A DNA stretch of 64,000 nucleotides from Verrucomicrobiota bacterium (GCA_037139415.1 JBAXGN010000004.1:1-64000), one strand, 5' to 3'; counted from the first letter of the stretch, positions 2,666 through 42,397 are shown. The notes: generated from the sequence alone by a model not told the origin. Translations and numbers: made by a program.

Positions 2666-2735
2666 CTTCGCAGAATCACGTGTTCGGTTTCAAATTTTTC
2701 TGTCACCACCCGTGAGAATGGGATAATAAACAGCC

Positions 2736-3272
2736 ATGTCCGATACGCGAAACATCCGCAATCTGGCGCTCGTTGGGTTTATGGGCGTCGGCAAAACCAC
2801 CATCGGCCACTTGCTGGCCGCGCAGTTGGATTTTCGCTTTGTGGATACCGATCAACTGATCGAAGCTCAGGCCGGGCATACGATTGCTGAAATCTTTGCG
2901 AAATCCGGCGAGGCCACGTTCCGGGAATTGGAACGTCAAGTGGTGCAGGCGTTGAAGACGTATTCCAATACCGTGATTGCCACGGGGGGCGGATTGCCCT
3001 GCTTGGGGGATAATTTGGCCGAGTTGAAAACTCACGCGCTGACGGTCTGTCTCTGGGCGTCGCCGGAATCCGTTTATGAACGTGTTCGCCATCAGGCGCA
3101 TCGCCCGCTGTTGCACACGCCGGACCCATTGGGAAAAATTCGCGAATTGCTGGCCCTACGCGAACCCTATTATCGGCAGGCCGATATTCTGGTCAGCACC
3201 GATACACGGTCTCCGCGTGATTTGGTGTCCTTGCTGGCTTATGAGTTTCGCAGTGTCGTTCAGAAAAGTTGA
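2736..3272 (+). CDS. aroK: Shikimate kinase
   Basis: A 178-residue kinase that phosphorylates the 3-hydroxyl of shikimate with ATP, step five of chorismate and aromatic amino acid synthesis. It is cytoplasmic. The Walker A loop is GFMGVGKTT (residues 14-22). The DTD shikimate-binding motif follows (VDTDQLIE), then FRELER, the conserved GGG (ATGGGLPC) and a lid region with RPLL. Length is typical for the family. It is the first chromosomal gene after the tRNA fragment and ends before a strong terminator shared with the HU gene. Confidence 0.96.
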   Translation: MSDTRNIRNLALVGFMGVGKTTIGHLLAAQLDFRFVDTDQLIEAQAGHTIAEIFAKSGEATFRELERQVVQALKTYSNTVIATGGGLPCLGDNLAELKTHALTVCLWASPESVYERVRHQAHRPLLHTPDPLGKIRELLALREPYYRQADILVSTDTRSPRDLVSLLAYEFRSVVQKS

Positions 3273-3320
3273 GGTAAGCGGGGATGGCCGGGGGACATCC
3301 GGGTCTTTGGTTTGGACAAA

Positions 3321-3349
3321 AAAGGCGCTCTGAATTTCAGAGCGCCTTT
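3321..3349. terminator. Bidirectional rho-independent terminator between aroK and HU
   Basis: Arms AAAGGCGCTCTG and CAGAGCGCCTTT (3321-3332 and 3338-3349) form a perfect 12-base stem around a 5-base loop. An A run precedes it and a T run follows, so it can act on both strands. It sits between the convergent ends of aroK and the HU gene. Confidence 0.92.
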
Positions 3350-3366
3350 TGTTTCGAAAAACCGAA

Positions 3367-3660
3367 TTACTTCTTGGCCAGGATCGCGTCCTTGGCGGCC
3401 TTGAGGAAACGGAACTTCAAGACGCGCTTGGCTGGGACCTTGATCTTCTGACCTTTTTTCGGTCCGAACTGCATGATCATTTCACGAGCCGGGCGATTCT
3501 GCACCACGACTTTGCCAACGCCAGGGAACGTGAATGTGTTCTTGGCATTCTTGTACGCCAGTTCAGCCAGGACATCGAGCGCCTGGGCAGCCTGTTTCTT
3601 GGTGATCGCTACCTTATCGGCGACGGTCGCCGCGATTTGTGACTTAGAGAGTGTAGCCAT
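3367..3660 (-). CDS. HU/IHF family nucleoid DNA-binding protein
   Basis: A 97-residue histone-like protein of the bacterial DNA-binding (HU/IHF) family, which binds and bends DNA as a dimer. The N-terminal helices begin with LSKSQIAATVADK. The GVGKVVVQNRPAR region corresponds to the conserved FGxFxVxxRxAR beta-ribbon that inserts in the minor groove, and a Lys-rich tail follows. A TATAAT box lies only 5 bases before the ATG, so the message may be leaderless. The gene is flanked by the shared terminator and a long gene-free stretch, and is transcribed alone. Confidence 0.94.
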   Translation of the reverse strand: MATLSKSQIAATVADKVAITKKQAAQALDVLAELAYKNAKNTFTFPGVGKVVVQNRPAREMIMQFGPKKGQKIKVPAKRVLKFRFLKAAKDAILAKK

Positions 3661-3665
3661 AGTTT

Positions 3666-3671
3666 ATTATA
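3666..3671 (-). promoter_or_regulatory. Pribnow box of the HU gene, adjacent to the start codon
   Basis: A consensus TATAAT on the minus strand ends 5 bases before the ATG at 3660, so transcription should start at or within a few bases of the start codon. No clear -35 hexamer was found at the usual distance. Confidence 0.5.
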
Positions 3672-4013
3672 TTTTGTTTATTGTTTCGTACTCAGTCCGA
3701 AGACCTTGGGTGTTATTTAATCGTAACAAGCGTCCGGTGCAAGGGGAAAATGCAGAAAAATCAGGGTTTTTTTACAATGCAATGCGCCAAGTCACTGCCG
3801 GCTGAGCATCTGAACGACCGAAATGACACCATCCGCTTGCAGATTGGGGAGTTTCGGCCACCTTGGCAAAGCCCAGATTTGCTGGGTAAATGACCTCAAA
3901 TCACCGGGAATGCGGTAACGATGGCATGCGGTCAGGGACTGTATCCGTTGACGGCGCGCGGTCCTTTTATGCTTCATCACCAAAAATAGCGGGCAACCTC
4001 CACCGGCTGAGGA
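3672..4013. other. Gene-free stretch between HU and POT transporter
   Basis: About 340 bases without a supportable gene. Short open frames exist here on both strands but have no homology-like composition or start signals. The part next to HU should hold its upstream promoter region; nothing else stands out. Confidence 0.5.
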
Positions 4014-5354
4014 TCAAGCTGCTACCGGCAAAAACTTTTTCTCACGGTACTTCATGGCGATGAAAATAAACGCCACGGCGGTCAGGGCCATCAAGCCGGC
4101 AAAAAACAGGAAGTAGGCCGGCCCGCTCAGCAGGCTGGTGCCGTCCGGTTTTTGAATGAGCACGTTAATGAGCGCAGTGAAGGCGTTGCCCAGCCCAACG
4201 GAGGCCAGGTACAGCGACATGATCAGCGATTTCAATTCCCTGGGCGCTTGCGAATAGCTGAACTCCAGGCAGGTGATCGAGACCATGATCTCCGCTTGGC
4301 TGATGATGATGTACGACAGAATTTGCCAGCCAATGTTTGGCTTGTGCCCGAGGGAAATTTGCTGTTCCACCCAGGCGGTGAGCAGAAACGACGGTACCGT
4401 GAGGAAAAAACCCAGCGCGATTTTTCGTAGCGGAGTCAGTGGGAAAACCCGCGAGATCATTGGATAAACAAGGTATGTGCTGAGCGGGATGAGCAACAGA
4501 ATCAAAATGGGATTCGCCGCCTGCACCTGTGAGGGTAACCAGGTGAATCCCAAAAACCTGAGGTTCATTTTCTCGGCCTGCAATACCCAGGCGGACCCCG
4601 TTTGGTCCCAGAGCGACCAGAACATGGCCACCGCCAGGTAAATGGGAATCAGCCCGGCAATCAATTTGAGGTTATCCACGCGGAATAATTCGCGCACGAA
4701 CTGTTTGCCGGCGGGGGGCACCCGCACATAAGTATTTCGGCCCAGCCAAAAGATAATCGTGGCCAGCAGCATGAAAATGCCCGGCACGCCAAAGGCCACG
4801 CGCGGCCCATATTTGTCCAGCAGCCAGGGGGTGAGCATCGTGGAAAAAAAAGAACCGAAATTGATCGAGAAATAGAACCAACTGAAGATGCGCGGTAACA
4901 GGTGCTGGTTGCGCAGGCCGAATTGATCGCCCACGTTGGCGGAAACGCACGGCTTGATGCCGCCTGAGCCCAGGGAAATCAATATCAGCCCGGCCGTCAA
5001 ACCCAACCGGGTATCGTCCAACGCGAGTGCCAGATGCCCCAGGCAATAAACGAGCGACAGCCAGAAAATGGTCCGATATTTCCCCAGAAACGCATCGGCC
5101 ACAATTGCCCCCAGGAAAGGCAGAAAATACACGGCGGAGACAAACGTATGGAACCAGGCCTTGGCTTGTTCGGGCGACATGTGGTCCGGCTGCCCCATGC
5201 GGTCCACCAGGCACTTGGTCATGAACACTACCAAAATGGTGCGCATCCCGTAGAAGCTGAAGCGTTCGGCGGCTTCGTTGCCGATGATATAGGGAATGCC
5301 GGGCGGCATTCGGTCGGTCTCCAATGCCTTGGTCGGGTAAGTGTTGTTCGCCAT
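4014..5354 (-). CDS. POT family proton-dependent oligopeptide transporter
   Basis: A 446-residue inner-membrane MFS carrier of the POT/PTR family, importing di- and tripeptides with protons. The family signature ExxERFxxYG is present near the N terminus (NEAAERFSFYG), and many hydrophobic helices follow (about 12 expected). The charged cytoplasmic loop FLGKYRTI and the motif FSWFYFSINFGSF match the second PTR2 signature. The ATG at 5354 is preferred over 5435 because the longer start would add a polar leader overlapping the upstream gene. It lies 35 bases downstream of the prolyl oligopeptidase gene, which suggests a peptide-utilisation operon. Confidence 0.92.
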   Translation of the reverse strand: MANNTYPTKALETDRMPPGIPYIIGNEAAERFSFYGMRTILVVFMTKCLVDRMGQPDHMSPEQAKAWFHTFVSAVYFLPFLGAIVADAFLGKYRTIFWLSLVYCLGHLALALDDTRLGLTAGLILISLGSGGIKPCVSANVGDQFGLRNQHLLPRIFSWFYFSINFGSFFSTMLTPWLLDKYGPRVAFGVPGIFMLLATIIFWLGRNTYVRVPPAGKQFVRELFRVDNLKLIAGLIPIYLAVAMFWSLWDQTGSAWVLQAEKMNLRFLGFTWLPSQVQAANPILILLLIPLSTYLVYPMISRVFPLTPLRKIALGFFLTVPSFLLTAWVEQQISLGHKPNIGWQILSYIIISQAEIMVSITCLEFSYSQAPRELKSLIMSLYLASVGLGNAFTALINVLIQKPDGTSLLSGPAYFLFFAGLMALTAVAFIFIAMKYREKKFLPVAA

Positions 5355-5389
5355 GTGTATTTGTGGGTTCGGGAATGTTTTCTGGCACG

Positions 5390-7555
5390 TTACCAGTTTG
5401 GCTTGAGGTGCAACACCTTTACGAGAAAGGCCCATTTATCCGCCGCTTCCTCGATCAATTTGGTGGTGGGTTTGCCCGCCCCATGGCCGGCGCGCGTTTC
5501 AATGCGGATCAGCACCGGGGCCTTGCCCGCCTGGCTGGCCTGAATTTGCGCCGCAAATTTAAAGCTGTGCGCTGGCACCACACGGTCATCGTGATCCGCC
5601 GTGGTGATCAGGGTGGCTGGATAACGCACGCCGGGCTTCAGGTTGTGCAGCGGCGAATAGGTCAGCAGCGTTTTGAACTCGTCCGGTTTATCCGAGGAAC
5701 CGTATTCCACTGCCCAGGCCCAGCCGATGGTGAATTTATGGAACCGGAGCATATCCATGACCCCGACGGCGGGCAGGGCGGCTCCGTACAAATCAGGGCG
5801 TTGCGCCAAGCACGCACCCACGAGCAATCCGCCGTTGCTGCCGCCGCCGATGGCCAGCTTGTCCGTGCGGGTGTACTGGTTGGCGATCAGCCATTCCGCT
5901 GCTGCGATAAAGTCATTGAACACATTCTGCTTGTTCGCCTTCATCCCGGCTTGATGCCACGCTTCGCCGTATTCCCCGCCGCCGCGCAGGTTGGGAATCG
6001 CCAGCACGCCGCCCATCTCCATCCATACCAGGCTGGCCACAGAAAACGCGGGGGTGAGATTGATATTAAAGCCACCATAACCGTAGAGGTACGTGGGGTT
6101 GCGCCCATTGCGTACCAACCCCTTTTTATGCGTGATGAACATGGGGATCGGCGTGCCGTCTTTGCTCGGGAAAAAGACTTGCTCGGTTTCGTAATCTGCC
6201 GGGTTGAAATCCAGTTTGGGAGATTTGAAGACCGTGGTCTGCCCGGTTTTCATATCCAGCCGGTAAATGCTCGCCGGGGTAGTGTAACTGGTGAACGAAT
6301 AGAACGTTTCCGTATCGTCTTGCTTGCCGCCGAATCCGCCCGACGTGCCCAGCCCTGGCAACGGCAATTCCCGTTCCAAAGTGCCATCGAGACGGTGGAT
6401 TTTGACGGCCGTGTGCGCGTCTTTCAGGTAGTTCAGCACAAACCGCTGATCCAGCACGTTACCCGAAACCAGAGTATCACTGGTTTGCGCCACAAGTTCC
6501 TTCCAATTCGCCCGGTCCGGTTGTTGGACGTTGATGGCCATGAGGCGTCCGCGTGGCGCGTTTAAATCCGTGCGAAACCAGAATACCGGCCCGGTATTAT
6601 CAATGAACGTATAGTCCGCATCAAAGTCCTTAAGCAGTTCCACCACCGGTGCATTGGGAGCCCGCAAATCCTGGTAAAACAAACCGTTCTTCGTATCCGT
6701 GCCGCGGGAAACGGAAAGGATCAAGTATTGCCCGTCATCCGTAACCCCGGCGCTGAAACCCCAATCGGCCTGGTCGGGGCGATGGTAAATGAGGCGGTCC
6801 TCGGTTTGGGCGGTGCCGAGCCGGTGGTAATACACTTTTTGAAAGCGGTTGACGGCCTTGAATTCATTGGCCCCTTTCGGCTCGTCATAACGGCTATAGT
6901 AAAATCCCAGGTTGTCCTTGGTCCAGGAGGCGCTGGAGAATTTGATCCAGCGCAGTTCATCCGGCAAATCCTGGCCAGTGCGCACATCGCGCACCTTCCA
7001 CGTCTGCCAGTCCGAGCCAGCCCCGGAGAGGCCGTACGCCAGCAGGTTTCCATCCTCACTGACCGCCAGACCGGCCAGCGCCACCGTGCCATCTTTCGAG
7101 AGGGTGTTGGGGTCCAGCAATACACGCGGTTCCGCTGTCAGCGACTCGGCGGTGTAGAGCACAGCCTGGTTCTGCAGACCGTTGTTCTTGGAATAGAAGT
7201 AGCGTCCGCCTTTCTTGGACGGCGTGCTGTACCGCTCATAATTCCACAACCGGGTGAGCCGCTCGCGGATAGCCTGACGCTGCGGTATCTGACCAAGGAA
7301 ATCGAAGGTGACTTGGTTCTGCGCCTTAACCCATTCCACCGTGTCTGGTGCGTCTGGATCCTCCAGCCAGCGGTAGGGATCGGCCACCTTGACGCCGTGA
7401 TACACGTCTGCCTGTTCAATCGTCTTGGTGACCGGGTACGCGAGGTGATAGCGAGCCGAGGCGCAGCCGCTTAACAACGCCGCGCACAGGGCGGCCAGGA
7501 TGATGGTTGCCGCCGGGCAACCACCCAACAAACCAAGGTCATTCATGCGATGCAT
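5390..7555 (-). CDS. Prolyl oligopeptidase family serine peptidase, predicted lipoprotein
   Basis: A 721-residue S9A peptidase that cleaves short peptides after proline. The N terminus carries a hydrophobic signal and a lipobox (LLSGC), so the enzyme is probably membrane-anchored in the periplasm. An N-terminal peptidase_S9_N beta-propeller is followed by an alpha/beta-hydrolase domain. The catalytic Ser is in GGGSNGG (about residue 573), Asp in TADHDDRV (about 655) and His in RAGHGAG (about 691). Start ATG at 7555 (or 7546) is chosen because it begins the signal peptide; the frame extends to a GTG at 7642. The peptide transporter gene follows at once, so released peptides may be imported. 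Confidence 0.94.
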   Translation of the reverse strand: MHRMNDLGLLGGCPAATIILAALCAALLSGCASARYHLAYPVTKTIEQADVYHGVKVADPYRWLEDPDAPDTVEWVKAQNQVTFDFLGQIPQRQAIRERLTRLWNYERYSTPSKKGGRYFYSKNNGLQNQAVLYTAESLTAEPRVLLDPNTLSKDGTVALAGLAVSEDGNLLAYGLSGAGSDWQTWKVRDVRTGQDLPDELRWIKFSSASWTKDNLGFYYSRYDEPKGANEFKAVNRFQKVYYHRLGTAQTEDRLIYHRPDQADWGFSAGVTDDGQYLILSVSRGTDTKNGLFYQDLRAPNAPVVELLKDFDADYTFIDNTGPVFWFRTDLNAPRGRLMAINVQQPDRANWKELVAQTSDTLVSGNVLDQRFVLNYLKDAHTAVKIHRLDGTLERELPLPGLGTSGGFGGKQDDTETFYSFTSYTTPASIYRLDMKTGQTTVFKSPKLDFNPADYETEQVFFPSKDGTPIPMFITHKKGLVRNGRNPTYLYGYGGFNINLTPAFSVASLVWMEMGGVLAIPNLRGGGEYGEAWHQAGMKANKQNVFNDFIAAAEWLIANQYTRTDKLAIGGGSNGGLLVGACLAQRPDLYGAALPAVGVMDMLRFHKFTIGWAWAVEYGSSDKPDEFKTLLTYSPLHNLKPGVRYPATLITTADHDDRVVPAHSFKFAAQIQASQAGKAPVLIRIETRAGHGAGKPTTKLIEEAADKWAFLVKVLHLKPNW

Positions 7556-7592
7556 AGCAATGTAAGCCCACAAAAAAGCATAAATCCGGTGA

Positions 7593-7609
7593 AAACCAAG
7601 CTTTGGTTT
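7593..7609. promoter_or_regulatory. Small inverted repeat between divergent genes
   Basis: AAACCAA and TTGGTTT arms separated by 3 bases lie in the short region between the oligopeptidase gene (minus) and the secreted protein gene (plus). The position suits an operator, but no regulator is identified. Confidence 0.25.
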
Positions 7610-7628
7610 GCACAATTTGCCTTTCGTG

Positions 7629-7658
7629 TTGGCTAAGACCACATGAGCACGCTATAGT
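7629..7658 (+). promoter_or_regulatory. Sigma-70-like promoter, possibly leaderless transcript
   Basis: TTGGCT (7629-7634) and TATAGT (7653-7658) are spaced by 18 bases. The expected transcription start is about 7665, only a few bases before the ATG at 7669, and no Shine-Dalgarno sequence precedes that ATG. Confidence 0.45.
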
Positions 7659-17417: not shown

Positions 17418-20400
17418 TTATTTGGGCCGCGCCCATTCGATCATGATGTCTTTTTTGAGCGAGGCGGTTTTTTTCCCGGAAGCATCCAATAACTCAATCT
17501 CGAGGGTATCCACCCGAATCAAGTCCTGGGGAATACTCGCCGTTTCATCCACACCAACCTGGAGCACTTGCAGGCTGCGGCCGGCCGTCACCTCGGCGGG
17601 CGGGATGGCAAACCAGGAGGCCGTCACCAGTTTTCGGGAATCGTATATTTTAGCGGTCAGTTTACCCGCGCCACCCACCATGTTACAGCGCACCGCAATG
17701 GTGCCGTGAAACAAGTCGTTTTGCCGGAAATCTTCCAACTCGATGGTGCTGCTGGGAGCCACCGGGGCTTTGGCGGAAGAATCCGCTTCTGAATTACCTT
17801 TGGCGGTATCTGCCGCTGCTGCCCCCGGAGCCTTCCAGGTTAGGAGCATGGTGGCGGGATAAATGTTCTCCTGTTTGCCAGCACTCGCTTCCGACAGATA
17901 GACATAGACCTTATCGGTCGTGACGGCGCGAACCTCTGGATTGTCTGGATGGAATTTCACCGGAAAGAGGGCGAAATTGCGGCGGGATTTGGCAATTTGC
18001 ACCGGGGTAGCCTGGAAGAAACGGCTGACCTCGGGCTCGCGCGCCCGGGTAACGTTGACTCCCAGCATGGGCGAGGTCATATCATCCTTGTACTCGTACT
18101 CAACGCCAATGGTCATCTGGCTGCGATCCAGACTGCGATTGACCACATCCACGTTGGTAACCTTGCTCTTCAAGTGGGTGGCCATGACCGGCCCGCTCGA
18201 TGGTTGCGCCTCGGCCGCCTGATCCGCCCGCAAGCGGGCCATTTCTTTGGCCTTGGCGACGGCCTCGGCAGCGGCGCGCGCCTCGGCTTCGGCTTTCACC
18301 TTGGCTTCCGCAATGGCCCGGGCCTCGGCTTCCACTTTCGCCTTTTCTTCAGCCAGCCGTTTTTCTTCGGCCAGCCGTTTGACCTCTTCCTGGGCCTTGC
18401 GCTCCGCTTCCTCGCGAATTTTGGCTTTCGCGGACGCTTGCTCTGCCGCCAGTCGGCGTTCCTCAGCCAGGCGTTGGGCGGTTTCTTCAGCCAGGCGTTG
18501 GGCTTCCGCGCGTGCCTTGGCTTCCGCTTCGGCTTTTGCGCGCGCCAGTTCCCGCTGCCGCGTCTCTTCCTCGGCCTTCAATCGGGCCGCTTCCCGGACC
18601 TTGGCTTCCGCCACCGCCTGCTCTTCCGCCAGCCGTTTTTCCTCCGCCAACCGTTGGGCTGCCGCCTCCGCCTTGCGTTGGGCTTCCGCGCGGGCCTTGG
18701 CTTCCTCTTCGGCTTTCAACCGCGCCAGTTCCCGTTGCCGATCCTCTTCTTCGGCCTTTTTGCGCGCCTCGTCACGGGCCCTGGCTTCCGCCACCGCCTG
18801 CTCTTCTGCCAACCGCTTTTCCTCGGCCAAGCGTTTAGCCTCGGCCTCGGCCTTGCGTTGGGCGTCCGCGCGGGCTTTGGCTTCCTCCTCGGCCTTCAAC
18901 CGCGCCAACTCTCGTTGTCGCTCTTCTTCTTCGGCCTTTTTGCGCGCCTCGTCGCGGGCCTTGGCTTCCGCCACGGCCTTTTCCTCCGCCAGCCGCTTTT
19001 CCTCGGCCAGGCGTTTGGCTTCGGCCTCCGCCTTGCGCTGTGCTTCCGCGCGGGCTTTAGCCTCTTCTTCAGCCTTCAGCCGCGCCAACTCACGTTGCCG
19101 ATCCTCTTCCTCCGCCTTTTTGCGCGCCAGTTCCCGTGCCTTGGCTTCCGCCGCCGCCTGCTCATCCGCCAGCCGCTTCTCCTCGGCCAGGCGTTTGGCC
19201 TCGGCCTCGACTTTGCGTTGCGCTTCCGCGCGCACCTTGGCCTCCTCGGCTAAACGTTCACGCTCTTTGGCCACCGCCTCCGTGCGAGCCTGCTCTTCGG
19301 CCAGCCGCTTTTCCTCGGCCAGGCGTTTGGCTTCGGCCTCCGCCTTGCGCTGTGCTTCCGCGCGGGCTTTAGCCTCTTCTTCAGCCTTCAGCCGCGCCAA
19401 CTCACGCTGCCGATCTGCTTCCTCGGCCTGCTTGCGCGCCTCTTCCCGTGCCTTGGCTTCTGCCACCACTTTTTCTTCCGCCAGCCGTTTTTCCTCAGCC
19501 AAGCGTTTGGCTTCAGCCTCTGCCTTGCGCTGCGCTTCCGCACGGGCCTTGGCCTCCTCTTCGGCTTGCAAGCGTGCCATTTCGCGCTGCCGATCCTCTT
19601 CCGCTGCCTTCAAACGCGCCGCCACCCGCGCCTTTTCTTCCGCCGCCGCCCTTTCTTCCGCCAGCCGTTTTTCCTCGGCCAGGCGTTTGGCGTCTGCTTC
19701 GGCCTTGCGTTGTGCTTCAGCACGCACCTTGGCCTCTTCCTCGGCCTTCATCCGCGCCAGCTCCCGCTGCCGCTCCTCTTCCACCGCTTTCAACCGCGCG
19801 TCTTCCCGTGCTTTGGCTTCCGCCACCGCTTTTTCTTCCGCCAGCCGTTTTTCCTCGGCCAGGCGTTTGGCGTCTGCTTCGGCCTTGCGTTGTGCTTCAG
19901 CACGCACCTTGGCCTCTTCCTCGGCCTTCATCCGCGCCAGCTCCCGCTGCCGCTCCTCTTCCACCGCTTTCAACCGCGCGTCTTCCCGTGCTTTGGCTTC
20001 CGCCACCGCTTTTTCTTCAGACAAGCGCCGCTCTTCCGCCAGCCGTTTAGCCTCTTCTTCGGCCTTCATCCGCGCTTCTTCCCGCGCCTTAAGTTCAGCT
20101 TCCTGACGCGCTTTTTCTTCCGCCAATCGTTGGGTCTCCGCGTCCGCCTTGGCTTTGGCTTCAGCGAGTTCCTTGGCGTGCGCCTCGGCCGCCAGCCGCG
20201 CTTGCTCGCGCACTTCCGCCTCCGCTTTGGCCTTGGCTTCCGCCTCGGCCGCTTGCCGTGCGGCCTCCTTGGCTCGTTTTTCCTCTTCGGCGGCTTTTTG
20301 CGCCAGTTCCTTGGCACGGGCTGGATCAAAGGTGGACTCTTGGGGAGTTTCCGGCATGGGTACAGCCTTGGCATTCGCACTTCCCCACTTGACGGTCTTC

Positions 20401-35226: not shown

Positions 35227-36023
35227 ACCGCCCGGAAGAATATCAGAAAATGGCGCGAGTCGAAGGCGACCTATGGTGGTATCGCGCACTCCATCAGCAG
35301 GTCGCGGACGCATTGGACGCCTGTCCAAGCCGGTTCGCCACCCGGATTGTGGATGCCGGTTGCGGCACGGGAGGCTTATTATTATTTCTGCAACATCAAG
35401 GCTATCGGTACATGCAAGGTTGCGATATTTCTCCCGAGGCCGTTCGGATCTGCCGACAACGAGGATTGCCAGTGGAACAGCGGGATTTGCGCGAACTTGG
35501 CCAGTTCTGGCCGGGAACAAAGGCCGAAGCGCTGATCAGCACTGACACATTGTATTTTTTTTCACGCGAGGAACAAATGACGGTGATCCGGCAGCTTCAC
35601 GAAGCGCTGTCTCCCGGTGGTTTATTGATCATGAACCTGCCCGCCTTGGCGGCATTCCGAGGTGCCCACGACCGGTGCGTGGGTATTCAGCAACGGTTCA
35701 CCCGGCGAGACGTGATCCGGTTGTTCCCCCCATCCCGCTTTGAACGGGTGCAGGCACGCTTTTGGCCGTGCCTCGTATCGCCTGGGATTTTTATGGCACG
35801 CGCTTGGCAGCGGCTTCGGCTTCGTTGCCTGCCGGACCAGGAAGCGCAATCAGACCTGGATTTGCCACCAAGCTGGCTAAACCGTTGGTTGGAACGAGTG
35901 ACGCGATTGGAGAATGCCTGGTTTCCCTGGAAACCGTTTGGCAGTTCGCTGTTTGTGACGGCACAAAAGCTTTCCAAATGCGTTTCAATAAATCCGACTG
36001 TAAAGCCGTCCAACCTGCCATGA
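35220..36023 (+). CDS. SAM-dependent class I methyltransferase
   Basis: A 267-residue methyltransferase. IVDAGCGTGGLLLFL is SAM motif I, GCDISPEAVRICRQRGL carries the acidic residue binding the ribose, and LISTDTLYFFSREEQ and LSPGGLLIMNLPAL are motifs II/III. The C-terminal 100 residues (MARAWQRLRLRCLP) are basic and may contact membrane or a partner. It follows the membrane protein and overlaps the histidine kinase start as ATGA, so it belongs to the same transcript. A methylated glycan or polyprenyl-linked sugar is the inferred substrate. Confidence 0.9.
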   Translation: MLNRPEEYQKMARVEGDLWWYRALHQQVADALDACPSRFATRIVDAGCGTGGLLLFLQHQGYRYMQGCDISPEAVRICRQRGLPVEQRDLRELGQFWPGTKAEALISTDTLYFFSREEQMTVIRQLHEALSPGGLLIMNLPALAAFRGAHDRCVGIQQRFTRRDVIRLFPPSRFERVQARFWPCLVSPGIFMARAWQRLRLRCLPDQEAQSDLDLPPSWLNRWLERVTRLENAWFPWKPFGSSLFVTAQKLSKCVSINPTVKPSNLP

Positions 36024-37735
36024 TGAATGCAGTACAATCTGGCGCGGCGCCGCCGCCGAAAGAGCCCGCGTTATGGATTTACCCGATCAAAAATTTGGGC
36101 GTGGCGATAATTTTCTGGCTGTTTGGGTTGTCGGGATACGTGCTGTCGCAAGCCAGTTCGGGAGTGACTCCCATCTGGTCGCCTATGGGCATCGGGGTCG
36201 CCATCGTTATCCTTTCCGGATATCGCTTCTGGCCGGGAATTTACGTGGGTGCCTTGATGGCGGATTTGGAAATTTCCCGGAATCCAGCCTTATCCTTCCT
36301 GCTCGCCGGAGGCAAGGTGATGGAATGCCTGCTGGCGGCCTGGATGGTGAACCGGTTCGCCAACGGACGGAAATTCTATTTACATCCGTGGGACATCGTG
36401 AAATTTGCAGTGCTCGCAGGGATGCTATGCCCTTTGGTGAGTCCGCCGGTCGGCGTGCAATATCCTTCGCTGCAGCACTATATTTTCTGGGCGGGGCGTG
36501 CGTATAGTTGGTTGAGTTGTTGGCTGGGTGAGGTGGTCAGCGTGCTGGTATTCACACCGCTCATTGTCATCTGGAGGGACAGCCCGCGCCATGCCTGGCT
36601 TCGCCGCCAGAGGCTGGAATACGTATTGCTCCTCAGCCTGCTGATCCTGTTTGGGGAAGTCGTCTTTGGCGATTTCCTGCCCCCCGAGGCGCGGGCCTAT
36701 TGGATGCCCAATTTTTGCCTGCCGTTTTTACTGTGGGCGGCGTTTCGCTTTGGTCCGCGCGAAACGATCATTACGACCTTTGTCCTGGGGGCACTGGCGT
36801 TATGGGGAACGTTTCACGGATACGGCTATTTTGCCAAGGCGCAGCCGGCGGAGTCGCTGCTGGTATTCCAGGTTTTCCTGGCGGTGAACTCGATTCTGGC
36901 ATTGTTGGTGGCCGCCATTATTGTCCAGCGCAACCAGATTCGCGAGGATCTGCGCCAGGCGCGCGATGAGTTGGAGATCCGGGTGCAGCAACGCACCAAT
37001 GAATTATCCGAAACCAACCGCCTCTTGGAGAAAGAAATGGTGCGGCGGCAACAGGCGCAAGATGCCCACTCGCAAGCCTTGCGCCGCTTGGTGGAAGTGC
37101 AGGAAATCGAGCGCCGCCGGATTTCGCACGAGTTGCACGATCGCATGGGCCAGGAGTTGACCGCCATCAAGCTCTCCCTGAAAATGCTCAATAAGCAGAC
37201 GGGCATGGCCGAATCGGTACAGGCCGGCTTCCATCGGCTGGACGGGTTGGCGGATAGTCTGATGGTAACCGTGCATCGTTTGGCCTGGGAATTACGTCCC
37301 GCCATTCTTGATGATTTCGGCCTGGATGTCGCGTTGCGACGCTATGTAACCGAGTGGGCCGGGCAAAATGGGGTGCAGGGGGATTTCCACAGTGATGGAA
37401 TGGAATCCGTGCGGCTGCCTGCCAAAGTCGAATCCATGCTGTACCGGATTACCCAGGAGGCCCTCACCAACATCAGCCGCCATGCCCGCGCCAAACGCGT
37501 AAGCGTCCTGTTGGAACGCCGGCATAATCAACTTTCCTTGATTGTGGAAGATGATGGCTGTGGCTTTGACGCCGAAACGGTATTGAAAAGCACCGACGTA
37601 AATATGAAGTTGGGGCTGATGGGAATGCAGGAGCGGGTCATGTTGGTGGGGGGGACTTTGGAGATTGAGTCCAGTCCAAGCCAGGGCACAACCTTGTTTG
37701 TCCGCGTTCCCCTGGACGCCCGGATGGTAGATTAA
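36020..37735 (+). CDS. MASE1-type membrane histidine kinase (NarL/LuxR class partner)
   Basis: A 571-residue sensor kinase. The N-terminal 300 residues form a MASE1-like membrane sensor with about eight helices (TPIWSPMGIGVAIVILSGYRFWPGIYVGAL is typical). A coiled linker (about 300-360) leads to a HisKA_3 domain with the phosphoacceptor in ERRRISHELHDRMGQEL. The HATPase domain has ITQEALTNISRHARA (N box) and VEDDGCGFD, then LGLMGMQERV. The response regulator gene lies 9 bases downstream. The ATGA overlap with the methyltransferase ties the signalling pair to the glycan genes. Confidence 0.94.
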   Translation: MMNAVQSGAAPPPKEPALWIYPIKNLGVAIIFWLFGLSGYVLSQASSGVTPIWSPMGIGVAIVILSGYRFWPGIYVGALMADLEISRNPALSFLLAGGKVMECLLAAWMVNRFANGRKFYLHPWDIVKFAVLAGMLCPLVSPPVGVQYPSLQHYIFWAGRAYSWLSCWLGEVVSVLVFTPLIVIWRDSPRHAWLRRQRLEYVLLLSLLILFGEVVFGDFLPPEARAYWMPNFCLPFLLWAAFRFGPRETIITTFVLGALALWGTFHGYGYFAKAQPAESLLVFQVFLAVNSILALLVAAIIVQRNQIREDLRQARDELEIRVQQRTNELSETNRLLEKEMVRRQQAQDAHSQALRRLVEVQEIERRRISHELHDRMGQELTAIKLSLKMLNKQTGMAESVQAGFHRLDGLADSLMVTVHRLAWELRPAILDDFGLDVALRRYVTEWAGQNGVQGDFHSDGMESVRLPAKVESMLYRITQEALTNISRHARAKRVSVLLERRHNQLSLIVEDDGCGFDAETVLKSTDVNMKLGLMGMQERVMLVGGTLEIESSPSQGTTLFVRVPLDARMVD

Positions 37736-37744
37736 CCCGTCACC

Positions 37745-38398
37745 ATGAAAAAAATTCACGTCATGCTGGCCGACGATCACCGCGTAGTCTGCGAAGGATT
37801 ACGACTCTTGGTGAACAGTCAATCGGACATGCAGGTCGTCGGTGAAGCACAGAATGGCCGGGAAGCCGTGCAATTGGCCCGCAAACTTCAGCCGGATGTG
37901 ATCGTGATGGACCTCACCATGCCGGAATTGAACGGCTTGCAGGCCACGCAATTAATCAAGGACGAATTGCCGGGAATTAAAATTGTGGCCCTGACCGTGC
38001 ATGAGGATGAAACCTATCTGCGCCAACTGTGTCAGGCCAAAGCCAGCGGGTATGTGCTGAAGCGGTCAGCGGGCGATGAATTAGTCCAGGCGATTCGTAC
38101 CGTCATGGAGGGCGGGCTTTATTTTGACCGCCAACTGGCAGGCAAGGCGTTGTCCAGTCAAGCCGGGGGCGGTTCCACCAATGGCGAGCCGGGCACCGCC
38201 GAGCCCAGCGAACGGGAAAAAGAAGTGCTGATCCTCTATGCCTGGGGTTATAGCAATAAGGAAATCGGCGTCCGCCTGGGGCTAAGCGTAAAAACCGTGG
38301 AGACTTACCGCGCCCGCATCGGTGAAAAACTCGGACTTCATAGCCGCACCGACATCGTCCGTTTTGCCCTGCGACAAGGATGGTTGAAAGAGAACTGA
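37745..38398 (+). CDS. NarL/FixJ family response regulator
   Basis: A 217-residue regulator. The receiver domain (residues 1-120) has acidic residues ADDH, phosphoacceptor Asp in VIVMDLTMPELNG, a Thr in VALTVHE and the Lys in YVLKRSA. A Gly/Ser-rich linker joins it to a LuxR-type HTH (about 155-215: SEREKEVLILYAWGYSNKEIGVRLGLSVKTVETY). It should be phosphorylated by the kinase encoded 9 bases upstream and act as a DNA-binding activator. Its targets may include the upstream glycan genes. Confidence 0.96.
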   Translation: MKKIHVMLADDHRVVCEGLRLLVNSQSDMQVVGEAQNGREAVQLARKLQPDVIVMDLTMPELNGLQATQLIKDELPGIKIVALTVHEDETYLRQLCQAKASGYVLKRSAGDELVQAIRTVMEGGLYFDRQLAGKALSSQAGGGSTNGEPGTAEPSEREKEVLILYAWGYSNKEIGVRLGLSVKTVETYRARIGEKLGLHSRTDIVRFALRQGWLKEN

Positions 38399-38715
38399 AT
38401 GCGCAGGGAACATGCGCGCCAGCGGTTGGCATCAATTCCTACTCGACCAGATGTCTCAGCATCGCGGCGACAGAGCGGTTCAGCGGGTAGTCAGTGCGTC
38501 CTTTTCGCGCAACCAAATAGCCAGACTGTTCAAGCTGCTACCCCGTCACCAAACCGGGCTGCGAGATGGCGGGGAGCCTAATCCCCTAATTACGCGGGAG
38601 GGCGACTTTGCCGGTGCGAGTGAGGTCCTGGATGCCGAAGGCTTTCATGAGGTCCAGGAATTTGTCCACCTTGACTTCTCCGCCGGTGATTCCGCAGGAA
38701 TACTGTCGGCCAGCC
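38399..38715. other. Intergenic region holding a displaced ilvN 3' end
   Basis: No intact gene. The first 130 bases after the response regulator show no recognisable signal. The rest contains the ilvN-related duplicate and its decayed downstream flank. Confidence 0.6.
38593..38691 (-). pseudogene. Displaced 3' end of ilvN (left direct repeat)
   Basis: These 99 bases match 41883-41981, the end of intact ilvN, with two differences. In the ilvN frame both are synonymous (Phe TTT/TTC and Thr ACC/ACT). The copy ends one residue past the match with its own stop (Asn-TAG, against His-TAA in ilvN). Weaker similarity continues through the downstream flank to about 38527. It lacks the rest of the gene. 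Such a copy is expected when an element inserts in the gene end and brings its own version of that end. Confidence 0.8.
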
Positions 38716-40314
38716 TTATGCCGGCTTGGCTTTCGCCGCCGCCGCCAAGAGTTCGGCTAAATTGCGCTGATAACGCTGAGTATCGCGATGCGTCTTGCCC
38801 AAGACCCGTTCCGCCGTTTCCAAGGCGCGACGGTACAGCGGTTCGGCGGCGACCAAGTCCCCTTTTTCACTCAACAAAATGGCCAGGTTGTCCAGACTCT
38901 TAAGCGTGTCGGGGTGCTCCGGCCCCAGCACGCGCTCCATGGTTTCCGCAGCGCGGTGGTACAGCGGTTCGGCGGCAGCCAGGGCGCCTTTCCCCTTTAG
39001 CAAATTGGCCAGATTGCTCAGGCTTTTAAGCGTGTCCGGATGCTCCGGTCCCAAAACGCGTTCGCGTGTTTCCAAAGCGCAGCGATACAGCGGTTCGGCG
39101 GCGGCCAAGTCCCCTTTGTCACGCAACAAAACAGCCAGGTTGTTCAGACTAGCAAGCGTGTCCGGATGCTCCGACCTCAGCACGCGCTCGCTCGTTTCCA
39201 AGGCGCGGCGGTACAGCGGTTCGGCGGCGGCCAGGTCCCCTTTGTCACTCAGCAAAATGGCCAGGTTGTTCAGGCTCGAAAGCGTGTCAGGGTGCTCCGG
39301 CCCCAGCACGCGCTCACGCGTTTCCAAGGCGCGGCGGTACAGCGATTCGGCGGCAGCCACGTCTCCTTTGCCACTCAGCAAAATGGCCAGGTTGTTCAGG
39401 CTCGAAAGCGTGTCAGGGTGCTCCGGCCCCAGCACGCGCTCCATGGTTTCCAAGGCGCAGCGGTACAGCGGCTCCGCGGCATCATATTGGCCCAGTTGGT
39501 GTAATTGCCGCGCCCGGCGGCCCAGCACATACGCGTCAGCTTTGGAGAGAGCGCGGTTTTCTCCCAAAGCTTCGGAACTCGCTTTGGCCTCGGCCATGCG
39601 TGCGTTGACCTGATCCAGCAAATCAGACGCTTCACGAATCAAACCGGCATCCAACAGCGAGTCAATGGCCGGTGCGGCCAGTTGCTCCCGGGCAGTCCAT
39701 GGGTTTTCCCCGGCCTTTAGGGCGTTGGCAAAGCGTTGCATGAGGTCAGCCGAGCGGCGGCGGGCATCGGCCACCGGCACGGTGGGTTTGAACTCCGCCA
39801 CGGACGGTTTCTCAGACGGCGGGGCGACCAGCGTCTCCAACAACTGCAGCCGCACCATGAACCAGGAGTTCAAATCGGGCACCGCCCGGAGAAAGACATC
39901 CGTGAACCAGGGGGACATCCACCAGATTTGCCGCAGGCCGGGCCGGGCCAGGTTCTCGCGGTTGAAATTAAAGGCGTAGAGGGCCTTGGCAAGTTCGAGT
40001 TCATCCTGCGGCAGGGCATTGCCAAGATTGGCAATGGAGACGACGCCATCCGGCAGGGCTTCCAACCGTTCCACCAGGAGCCGCACCAAGGCGGTGGGAG
40101 AGAGCCCCATTGGCAGTTCGATTTCGGTGAACGGCGTCTGGTCCTCCGCCAGCGCCAGGCGCAAAGATTGCAGCAGGGCTTTGCGCGCCGCCTCGGTGGT
40201 GTATTCCAGCCGGGCAAATCCTTTGGGCGCGTGCCGGCACCAAAGCCGCAGGCGGGCTTGAATCTCCGCCACGCTGCCAACGGCGCTGGAGTTAGGTGGT
40301 TCCACCGGGAACAA
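38716..40314 (-). CDS. TPR protein with degenerate NTPase-like N-terminal domain
   Basis: A 532-residue protein. The N-terminal part (about 25-180) contains FARLEYTTEAARKALLQSL, the stretch AKALYAFNFNRENLARPG and IWWMSPWFTDVFLRAVPDLNSWF. This LNxxRExL...LWLP...APDxWSW pattern is, as far as I recall, typical of proteins beside or fused to STAND-type ATPases, with no Walker A here. Six 42-residue kinesin-light-chain-like TPRs follow (about 250-520; LGPEHPDTLSSLNNLAILL). The start codon is probably TTG at 40314, overlapping the ATPase gene end by 23 bases; GTG 40305 is possible. A sensor or scaffold role with the ATPase is inferred. Confidence 0.8.
   Translation of the reverse strand: MFPVEPPNSSAVGSVAEIQARLRLWCRHAPKGFARLEYTTEAARKALLQSLRLALAEDQTPFTEIELPMGLSPTALVRLLVERLEALPDGVVSIANLGNALPQDELELAKALYAFNFNRENLARPGLRQIWWMSPWFTDVFLRAVPDLNSWFMVRLQLLETLVAPPSEKPSVAEFKPTVPVADARRRSADLMQRFANALKAGENPWTAREQLAAPAIDSLLDAGLIREASDLLDQVNARMAEAKASSEALGENRALSKADAYVLGRRARQLHQLGQYDAAEPLYRCALETMERVLGPEHPDTLSSLNNLAILLSGKGDVAAAESLYRRALETRERVLGPEHPDTLSSLNNLAILLSDKGDLAAAEPLYRRALETSERVLRSEHPDTLASLNNLAVLLRDKGDLAAAEPLYRCALETRERVLGPEHPDTLKSLSNLANLLKGKGALAAAEPLYHRAAETMERVLGPEHPDTLKSLDNLAILLSEKGDLVAAEPLYRRALETAERVLGKTHRDTQRYQRNLAELLAAAAKAKPA
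38760..39510. repeat. 126-base coding repeats for TPR units
   Basis: Six copies of a 126-base unit (42 codons) encode the TPRs; neighbouring units are nearly identical, for example around 39190-39250 and 39316-39376. The similarity at DNA level suggests recent expansion or homogenisation. Confidence 0.75.
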
Positions 40315-41725
40315 TGCTTTCGCCTTGGGCAGGCTTGAGTTTCTCTTGTGAAATCAGAATGTCCACCACCAAGGGATGCACCCCGAACCAAGTATCGCCA
40401 TTGACAAATTCCTGAACCGCGCGGGAACGCAATAGAGAATTGAGGGTCGGGTCAAAAATCTTGGCGGTCGGCTTGCCTGCGTAAATATCCAGCAAACGAG
40501 CGGCCTTTTTTTCGTAGGTGATCGGTTCACTGCGGGGCTTGCCTTCCTCGGTTTGGCGATCATAGAGGTCTTCGCCCAGAAGGCGCAGATAATCGTTGCG
40601 CAAATCCTTGATGACCGATGTAACGAAGGATGCCGCCAGTTGCTTCGCACCACCCACTAAGGCCAGGTCGCACGCAAGATTGATCATGGAGAACAAATTG
40701 CGCAGATTACCACCGGAAGCAACAATGAGCCGTTCGAGTTGATCGGGAGCAAAAAGCGCGAGGTCCATGCGGGCCGCAACCACCTTTGTCAAAACCTCCC
40801 GCCCCTTGGGGTGTCGGTCGTGCTTTTGATCAAAGATCATGGTGTCGGGAATGCAGACAACCAACTCGCGTTGGACTGGAAGCAGGTTGGCCCGTTGGGA
40901 GTAGCCCAGCGCAATGGGAATGGTAAAGATGAAGTGGGTTTCGAGTCGTTTGAAAAAGTTGGCGTAGGTGACCAGCAACTGTTCGGTGCGCGCGGCAATG
41001 AAATCCTTTTCAAACCCATCCCCCACAAAAAGCCATTCCCTACGCGCGGCATCACGCAGTGATTGATTGCATTCCTGGATGAGCCGATTGGCGATGTCCA
41101 CCAACGTATCCAACCGGTTTAGCCGATATTCAATGCGCTCTTTCTCCCGCACATTGCCAAACCGAATCTCGCCTTTGAGTTTTGCGAACAAACCCAGCGC
41201 TTTGCCCCACCACAGAGCCCCTTGAGTATCCATCCCGGCACCAGCAGCCACTTCCGTCGCGTTGGTTTGCTTGATGGTGGTTTCTTCTTTCGAAAACCAA
41301 TCCCAGATTTCCTTAAGTCGTTCCTCTGATGGCCGTTGCCCGGCACCGCCCTTTTCGATGGGTTTGGCCGTATGTTCCACAATCTCCATCATCATGAGCA
41401 GCAACACGTCGAAGGGCTGGAAACTCAATGGATCCAGGCATTTATCAGCACTGAATCGGATAACGCGATATTGTTCTTCGGCGAGATGTTCAAGCCGCGT
41501 CAATTCGGTGGATTTGCCGACCCCGACATGCCCCATTACCAGAGCCTTGAAAAAATTGGCGTGATAGGAACGCTCCAGTCCGCGTGCCAGCAAAGCGATT
41601 TTATCCATGCCGCGCAACTCATTGAGTTCTTTGCAATAAAACGCTTTATATTCCCTCGGGTCTTCCAAAGGTGTCGGCGTTAAGTTTTTAAAAACATCTT
41701 CCAGTTTTGTCGCGGTCGTAAACAT
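40292..41725 (-). CDS. AAA/STAND-like P-loop ATPase paired with the TPR protein
   Basis: A 477-residue cytoplasmic ATPase. Walker A is GHVGVGKSTEL (about residues 65-75). The preceding RGMDKIALLARGLERS and following RFSADKCLDPLSFQPFDVLLLMM segments fit a family of AAA ATPases with GHxGxGKSTEL. WLFVGDGFEKDF may act as the Walker B region, with other family features less clear (SGGNLRNLFSMINLA matches the AAA/ORC sensor-2-like helix). ATG 41725 is preferred over GTG 41731. The stop overlaps the TPR gene start, so both products should be made together. Defence, signalling or quality control are possible; the sequence does not decide. Confidence 0.82.
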   Translation of the reverse strand: MFTTATKLEDVFKNLTPTPLEDPREYKAFYCKELNELRGMDKIALLARGLERSYHANFFKALVMGHVGVGKSTELTRLEHLAEEQYRVIRFSADKCLDPLSFQPFDVLLLMMMEIVEHTAKPIEKGGAGQRPSEERLKEIWDWFSKEETTIKQTNATEVAAGAGMDTQGALWWGKALGLFAKLKGEIRFGNVREKERIEYRLNRLDTLVDIANRLIQECNQSLRDAARREWLFVGDGFEKDFIAARTEQLLVTYANFFKRLETHFIFTIPIALGYSQRANLLPVQRELVVCIPDTMIFDQKHDRHPKGREVLTKVVAARMDLALFAPDQLERLIVASGGNLRNLFSMINLACDLALVGGAKQLAASFVTSVIKDLRNDYLRLLGEDLYDRQTEEGKPRSEPITYEKKAARLLDIYAGKPTAKIFDPTLNSLLRSRAVQEFVNGDTWFGVHPLVVDILISQEKLKPAQGESIVPGGTT

Positions 41726-41739
41726 AATCACTGATACCG

Positions 41740-41808: not shown

Positions 41809-41875
41809 GCAAAAAAGGCTTCAAAACTTCGGCCCGTCATCAACCAAACAGCGGCCGGGCGGGCCAGCTAACCCA

Positions 41876-42349
41876 TTAATGCCGCGGGAGGGCGACTTTG
41901 CCGGTGCGGGTGAGGTCCTGGATGCCGAAGGCTTTCATGAGGTCCAGAAATTTGTCCACCTTGACTTCTCCGCCGGTGATTTCGATGGTGAGGCTCTGGG
42001 GCTCGACGTTGACGATCTTGGCGCGGAAGATGTCGGTGATCTGCATCACCTCGGAGCGGGTCTCGGAGTTCACACCCACTTTGACGAGGACCAGTTCGCG
42101 ATCCACGTATTCGCCCTCGCGGTAGTCGGTGACCTTGATGACGTTGACGAGCTTATCCAATTGCTTGGTGATTTGCTCCATGGTGGCGTCGTCGCCCCGG
42201 GTGACGATGGTCATCCGGGAGACCTTGGGGTCGGAGGTGGGCGCCACGTTCAGCGTGTCAATGTTGTAACCGCGCCCGCTAAAGAGGCCGGCCACGCGGG
42301 TGAGCACGCCGAATTTGTTTTCCATGAGCACTGAGATCGTATGTCGCAT
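41876..42349 (-). CDS. ilvN: Acetolactate synthase, small regulatory subunit
   Basis: A 157-residue regulatory subunit that stimulates acetohydroxyacid synthase and gives valine feedback control in branched-chain amino acid synthesis. The N-terminal ACT domain is clear: [36 protein letters not shown]. The C-terminal ALS_ss_C domain includes [21 protein letters not shown]. Start ATG 42349 opens the ACT domain; the frame extends to 42388 without support. The last 99 bases are duplicated 3.29 kb downstream. No large-subunit gene is in the window. Confidence 0.95.
41883..41981. repeat. Right direct repeat (3' end of intact ilvN)
   Basis: Partner of 38593-38691, 97 of 99 bases identical; it lies inside the ilvN coding sequence and stops a few bases before its stop codon. 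Weak similarity continues leftward to about 41818. Confidence 0.85.
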
Positions 42350-42397
42350 AACGTGCAGTAGGTTACCAGCGATCCGGAGGCGGGGCAATTATGATTT

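Follow-up and report, generated by a model that had tools for sequence, protein, structure and literature searches.

A sparse, widespread pair of active and Walker-less AAA+ proteins whose repeat sensor appears to be exchanged between modules

What might an ATPase with an intact P-loop do when the gene overlapping its own encodes a protein that has lost the nucleotide-binding motifs and ends in a stack of near-identical repeats? Such a pair lies in a stretch of 64,000 nucleotides (the window) on contig 4 of a Verrucomicrobiota bacterium, whose genome comprises 7.9 Mb in 378 contigs (GCA_037139415.1, JBAXGN010000004.1:1-64000). A preliminary description of this DNA had proposed a conflict or signalling system within a candidate mobile cassette. 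Pairs of active and inactive STAND proteins have already been predicted from sequence; what is new here is a sensor array that appears to be interchangeable. The core and the sensor part measurably, in that the ATPase and the dead domain co-diverge and the sensor, on the same chain as the dead domain, seems to have been exchanged between modules. We found no literature report on how sensing is built into active/inactive STAND pairs, or on how sensing changes.

The gene pair and its position beside ilvN

The features of the locus are as follows.

40292..41731, minus strand: gene for a predicted ORC/STAND-clade AAA+ ATPase, 479 aa (open reading frame, motifs, AlphaFold2 and Foldseek)
38716..40314, minus strand: gene for a protein with a predicted Walker-less AAA+ domain (WLD) and TPRs, 532 aa (open reading frame, Pfam, profile)
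39811..40272, minus strand: the WLD, inactive STAND-like by prediction, approximately residues 15-168 of the 532-aa protein (profile, model)
38740..39478, minus strand: TPR array, six units of 42 aa (126 bp) (Pfam, TRF)
38568..38694, minus strand: partial copy of the ilvN 3′ end (direct repeat)
41858..41984, minus strand: matching 3′ end of the intact ilvN (41876-42388), upstream of the ATPase gene (direct repeat)

Both open reading frames lie on the minus strand and overlap by 23 bp, as had been described. The ATPase gene starts with GTG at 41731 or ATG at 41725, and the WLD-TPR gene begins with TTG. In the latter, Pfam finds six TPR_10 units (E 2.6e-73) and TRF detects 5.3 copies of a 126-bp unit with 81% matches, so that the earlier wording of six near-identical TPRs is a fair one. 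The FxSxx_TPR model matches the TPR half of the protein and not its WLD. Elsewhere in the window, positions 18343-20018 hold a long tandem-repeat array with periods of 180 bp and 18 bp, which probably codes for a low-complexity helical protein.

The pair is flanked by a 125-bp direct repeat (92%), one copy of which is the 3′ end of the intact ilvN ahead of the ATPase gene, while the other, a partial ilvN, lies 21 bp downstream of the TPR gene. The partial copy reads through 34 residues and then a stop, its last residue being N, not H. This is what the entry of a segment next to ilvN, with duplication of the end, would leave. Both other genomes of the family carry ilvN and lack the pair. The G+C content of the pair is 57.6%, against 57.5% for the window, and no integrase, transposase or recombinase was seen beside it. 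The repeat and the absence from the rest of the family argue that the pair is accessory and was probably inserted at ilvN, but with neither a recombinase nor a shift in G+C, the candidate mobile cassette of the preliminary description is borne out only in part, as a probable insertion.

Direct repeats, sought at the other pair loci as a sign of a shared insertion mechanism, were not found there. A second pair beside ilvN occurs in another genome (G048, contig 45, locus L094), where a broken pair of a different subfamily (3835-5399 and 5579-6046) sits directly upstream of the gene, possibly by chance.

Fold class and linkage of the two proteins

The P-loop of the window ATPase is intact, as first noted (GHVGVGKSTEL), and so is its Walker B motif (WLFVGDGFEK, D238). 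Across 30 aligned ATPases, GxxxxGK[ST] is present in 29 and the Walker B aspartate is kept in 29; two arginines are also conserved, R344 (in SGGxxR) in all 30 and R321 in 27. The AlphaFold2 model (pLDDT 82.0) was compared with the PDB using Foldseek, where ORC1/Cdc6 gave the best match and CED-4, TnsC and RdrA also ranked high. With Walker A and B set in an AAA+ fold, the model places the protein in the STAND/ORC-Cdc6 clade, in line with the STAND-type ATPase suggested earlier. Profile searches were less telling: none of the named STAND models (NACHT, NB-ARC, nSTAND1-5) scored above cut-off on the window ATPase, the Pfam matches to AAA_16 (E 0.0021) and AAA_22 (0.054) are both below cut-off, and a sequence search of solved structures gave no meaningful match. 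The ATPases of relatives have weak matches to AAA_16, NPHP3_N, KAP, NACHT and nSTAND_NTPase5.

The partner had been described as Walker-less, and GxxxxGK[ST] occurs in none of 30 WLD sequences. The motifs quoted for it are present with one amendment: the LNxxRExL region reads FNFNRENLA in the window protein, and is followed by WWMSPWF and PDLNSWF as reported. The wider pattern is LNxxRD ... APDxxxWR; in the 30 sequences R119 and D147 are invariant and N116 is found in 29. No model listed in the Pfam and NCBIfam scans covers the domain.

Structure prediction of this N-terminal domain, proposed in the preliminary description, was performed with AlphaFold2 from 30 aligned sequences and gave a mean pLDDT of 84.6, with values of about 90 or more across residues 11-160. 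The model shows a five-strand core with the AAA+ order of strands and helices. Its best PDB matches by Foldseek are TnsC, NSF, ClpC and the clamp-loader delta subunit, with RecA-type P-loop proteins ranking lower; the TM-scores are modest (about 0.5) and support the fold class but not an exact clade. By model and matches the partner thus carries a degenerate AAA+ domain, and the concern that it might belong to an unrelated enzyme family was not borne out. The model places the WLD as an AAA+ fold that has lost its P-loop, and an AAA+ core with eroded Walker A and B motifs is what would be expected of an inactive STAND domain. A direct profile comparison of the WLD with the ATPase was not significant (probability 6.8%), and gives no support to the two being recent duplicates of each other.

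Whether the two genes belong together was asked by searching for them in other genomes. Single-sequence ATPase searches matched 7 of 196 genomes of the order and 4 of 289 of the phylum, and behind nearly every matched ATPase lay a gene with the LNxxRD ... APDxxxWR N-terminus, even at approximately 15% identity to the window. Genome contigs scanned with the window ATPase as sole query yielded no match, and an alignment of eight divergent ATPases contained no stretch conserved enough for scanning. A wider scan of four chosen ATPases against 84,980 species genomes recovered 11 more loci outside Verrucomicrobiota (Methylovulum, Dolichospermum, Oscillatoria, another cyanobacterium, Oscillospiraceae, Saprospiraceae, Acidobacteria and Campylobacterales), with identical gene order in all. 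Searched with a WLD profile derived from nine Verrucomicrobiota loci, all 11 show the domain directly behind the ATPase, with E-values from 3.9e-31 (Acidobacteria) to about 4e-4 (Campylobacterales, Oscillospiraceae). Plasmids of Nostoc, Acaryochloris and Acidisarcina also bear the pair.

When 293 genomes of the order were searched with each profile separately, 15 proved to have the ATPase and 15 the WLD, with 14 common to both. This co-occurrence greatly exceeds chance; its hypergeometric probability, 8e-22, is a rough guide only, because of the kinship among the genomes and because neighbours of the ATPase had supplied the WLD profile. WLDs of another sort elsewhere could escape such a profile. 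The one ATPase-only genome (G034) has a partial match close to a contig end, and the one WLD-only genome is G048, whose broken pair has its ATPase in N-terminal and C-terminal pieces. Of the 39 ATPase loci that could be read, 34 have a WLD gene as their immediate downstream neighbour; these come from seven phyla and include plasmids. Where the spacing was measured, the two genes overlap or sit within 30 bp of each other in 30 of 32 cases. At the other five ATPase loci (L020, L070, L074, L075 and L096) no WLD neighbour was detectable; three of them (L074, L075 and L070, in G571 and G511) belong to a genus in which a complete pair occurs as well.

The two genes therefore form a conserved pair, given the 14 shared genomes and the adjacency at 34 loci. 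Conservation in all relatives as a core housekeeping system, the contrary outcome considered at the outset, is not what we see, since the pair is present in 15 of 293 genomes and is accessory. These searches indicate a genuine, sparse and widespread two-gene module, and the WLD motif LNxxRD...APDxxxWR offers a recognisable handle for finding further such systems.

Core and sensor array

The part of the protein behind the WLD varies. It consists of TPRs in most loci; in Dolichospermum and another cyanobacterium the WLD is followed by nSTAND1 and WD40 repeats (cut by contig ends), and in one genome (G151) by a nucleotide cyclase, NACHT and HEAT repeats. The domains attached to the WLD are sensor or switch parts of known conflict proteins, and none is a plain killing enzyme.

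Mantel tests over 21 loci compared how the parts diverge. Identities of ATPase and WLD are correlated (r 0.41, P 0.0005), those of ATPase and repeats weakly so (r 0.17, P 0.02), and those of WLD and repeats are uncorrelated despite their common chain (r 0.02, P 0.36). The ATPase and the WLD co-diverge; the repeat array does not.

The window genome (G000) itself contains three pairs, which fall on different branches of the ATPase tree. In addition to that of the window on contig 4, these are:

contig 201: second pair (locus L015, 6706-9690)
contig 133: third pair (locus L065, 5703-8797)

In the tree, the contig 201 ATPase has a sequence from Acidobacteria as its fully supported sister, that of contig 133 groups with a sequence from G172, and that of the window forms a long branch of its own (2.16). 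The arrays tell a different story. Those of the window and contig 201 share 84.7% DNA identity over 757 bp, a match that runs from the first TPR unit to just before the stop codon, and no DNA similarity between the two pairs was found beyond it. At the protein level the window and contig 201 are 28% identical in the ATPase, 27% in the WLD and 76% in the repeats, whereas contig 201 and its Acidobacteria sister are 43%, 42% and 27% identical, respectively. Simple duplication of one module into the window and contig 201 pairs is ruled out by that sister relationship.

Codon choice points the same way. At identical residues of the window and contig 201 arrays, 75% of codons agree, against 53% expected under the same codon usage; with the arrays of two other genomes the agreement is 41-45%, against 38-39% expected. 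The shuffle test behind these expectations did not control for position within the repeat unit, so that it shows common descent of the units but not the exact route. The simplest account of these sequences is that a repeat array moved between modules, in this genome or in recent ancestors. The sensor array would then behave as an interchangeable part, and it is this finding that goes beyond the expected.

Candidate role and described relatives

With moderate confidence, we read the pair as a two-protein STAND-type switch, consisting of an ATPase, a dead AAA+ partner and an exchangeable repeat sensor, and probably serving in conflict. The first gene would supply a working ATPase, and the second a dead AAA+ domain that pairs with it and bears the C-terminal repeat sensor (six TPRs here). 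The two would form a mixed ring in which the WLD probably holds the ATPase off, with its invariant R119 possibly offered in trans. A foreign or stress ligand on the TPRs would free ATP-driven assembly, and the assembled ring would either set off a response encoded at another place or produce the response on its own. The likeliest role would be anti-phage defence or programmed death. Contact between the two proteins is suggested by the gene overlap, the co-divergence and the common fold class; a role in conflict is suggested by the sparse distribution, the plasmids, the fusions to nSTAND1 and NACHT, the exchangeable arrays and two plasmid neighbourhoods. On a conjugative plasmid of Acaryochloris the pair lies beside TIR and NB-ARC genes. 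On plasmid p057_J of Nostoc sp. C057 (L096, 5342-8266) the ATPase forms the rear part of a fusion with a vWA-like (SAV_2336 N-terminal) region and adjoins a MoxR ATPase; HEAT-repeat, formylglycine-generating-enzyme and restriction-endonuclease genes occur near this fusion.

Direct matches to defence systems were weak. PADLOC offered no meaningful model fit for the window proteins, and a search of 50,697 phage records gave no match. Six ATPases of relatives matched the NCBIfam model DS41_1, of the validated anti-phage system DS-41 (PMC13092281); membership was rejected, as the scores were 20-35 bits (at most 35.5) against a cut-off of 370 and covered short stretches. No recurring third gene was seen beside the pairs when neighbourhoods were inspected by eye, most neighbours being ordinary genes.

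The nearest described kind, judged by published descriptions, is the nSTAND2 two-gene systems (PMC8195603, section 15 and Figure 6C). That the pair belongs to these counter-invader systems, described in 2021, and has TPRs where they have a glycosyltransferase or HEPN effector, is a serious possibility that we nevertheless think less probable than not; the mechanism would be broadly alike and the family not new. According to that source, nSTAND2 systems are mobile two-gene operons in which an active STAND protein is accompanied by an eroded one that carries variable fused modules, all of which fits, as does the adjacency of active and eroded genes at the 34 loci. A conserved arginine finger is described there in both proteins; R344 and the nearly invariant R321 of the ATPase and R119 of the WLD are at most candidates for one. 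The inactive STAND domains are proposed there as nucleic-acid sensors, whereas here the repeat array is the obvious sensor. The variable module is described there as most often a GT4 or HEPN effector, which is not an absolute requirement; the pairs collected here instead carry sensor-like repeats (TPR, WD40, HEAT), sometimes with an NTPase of their own, and no GT4 or HEPN was found on any WLD protein scanned, among the families listed (25 of 67 in one scan). Nor did any of 20 ATPases match the DAP3 or RNA12 families.

Other known systems resemble the pair in part. The MoxR-vWA ternary conflict systems with iSTAND or iSTAND2 parts (PMC7159879, PMC8195603) likewise set a Walker-less STAND domain, as the proposed sensing part, beside an active AAA+ ATPase, and the vWA-like fusion with MoxR on p057_J corresponds to their core (PMC7159879); they have three components, however, against two here, and no MoxR or vWA gene is among the window genes beside the pair, that arrangement being seen for the one relative only. 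LypABC, the CARD-NLR-like system of Caulobacter and a shown lysis switch (PMC13236601), joins an Orc1-like AAA+ ATPase, which there also bears the TPRs, to a partner without Walker residues in its ATPase domain; here the TPRs are on the dead partner, and the peptidase domains of LypA and LypC have no counterpart. The single-chain antiviral STAND proteins, Avs and bNACHT among them, share a STAND-type switch and a C-terminal, often repeat-built sensor (summarised in PMC10907252 and PMC12169576); they are one chain and usually have their own effector, whereas here there are two chains and no effector was seen. BrxB and BrxF, the inactive STAND proteins of BREX (PMC12839542), couple such a fold to a defence complex, but BrxB is described as compact and as having no repeat sensor, unlike the WLD-TPR protein. 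No BREX genes were seen near the pair.

The preliminary description had also found no obvious effector domain in either protein, and our scans agree. This would suit a signalling or scaffolding module outside conflict, in which the ATPase remodels a TPR-bound host protein complex as a regulator of physiology, in the manner of the STAND transcription regulator MalT. Host proteins are frequent partners of TPRs, the neighbours of the pairs are mostly housekeeping genes, and the window pair adjoins a histidine kinase and response regulator (35762-38398). Patchy presence and plasmid carriage would be unusual for a regulator of host physiology, as would several distant copies per genome and exchange of the sensor array, and we regard such a role as unlikely. 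It is very improbable that the pair is now a functionless cassette, in decay or parasitic, which came in when the ilvN 3′ end was copied: the long branch of the window ATPase, the partial ilvN and the clearly broken pair in G048 would fit, but across 3 kb neither window frame is interrupted, and all ATPase catalytic motifs and the invariant WLD residues are kept.

The reading as a two-protein conflict switch can be extended, doubtfully, to a whole two-chain immune-switch family in which the ATP switch and its dead partner form a fixed core, R119 completes or blocks the ATPase site, and entire repeat arrays are moved between distant modules of one genome. If true, the array movement would parallel in bacteria the shuffling of repeats in fungal NLR genes, whose incompatibility proteins have repeat-built sensors (PMC10907252). 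One further arrangement concerns the ratio of the two parts: in one genome (G107, L069), a single ATPase gene lies between two WLD-TPR genes (2669-4288 and 5873-7651), so that one switch may serve two sensors.
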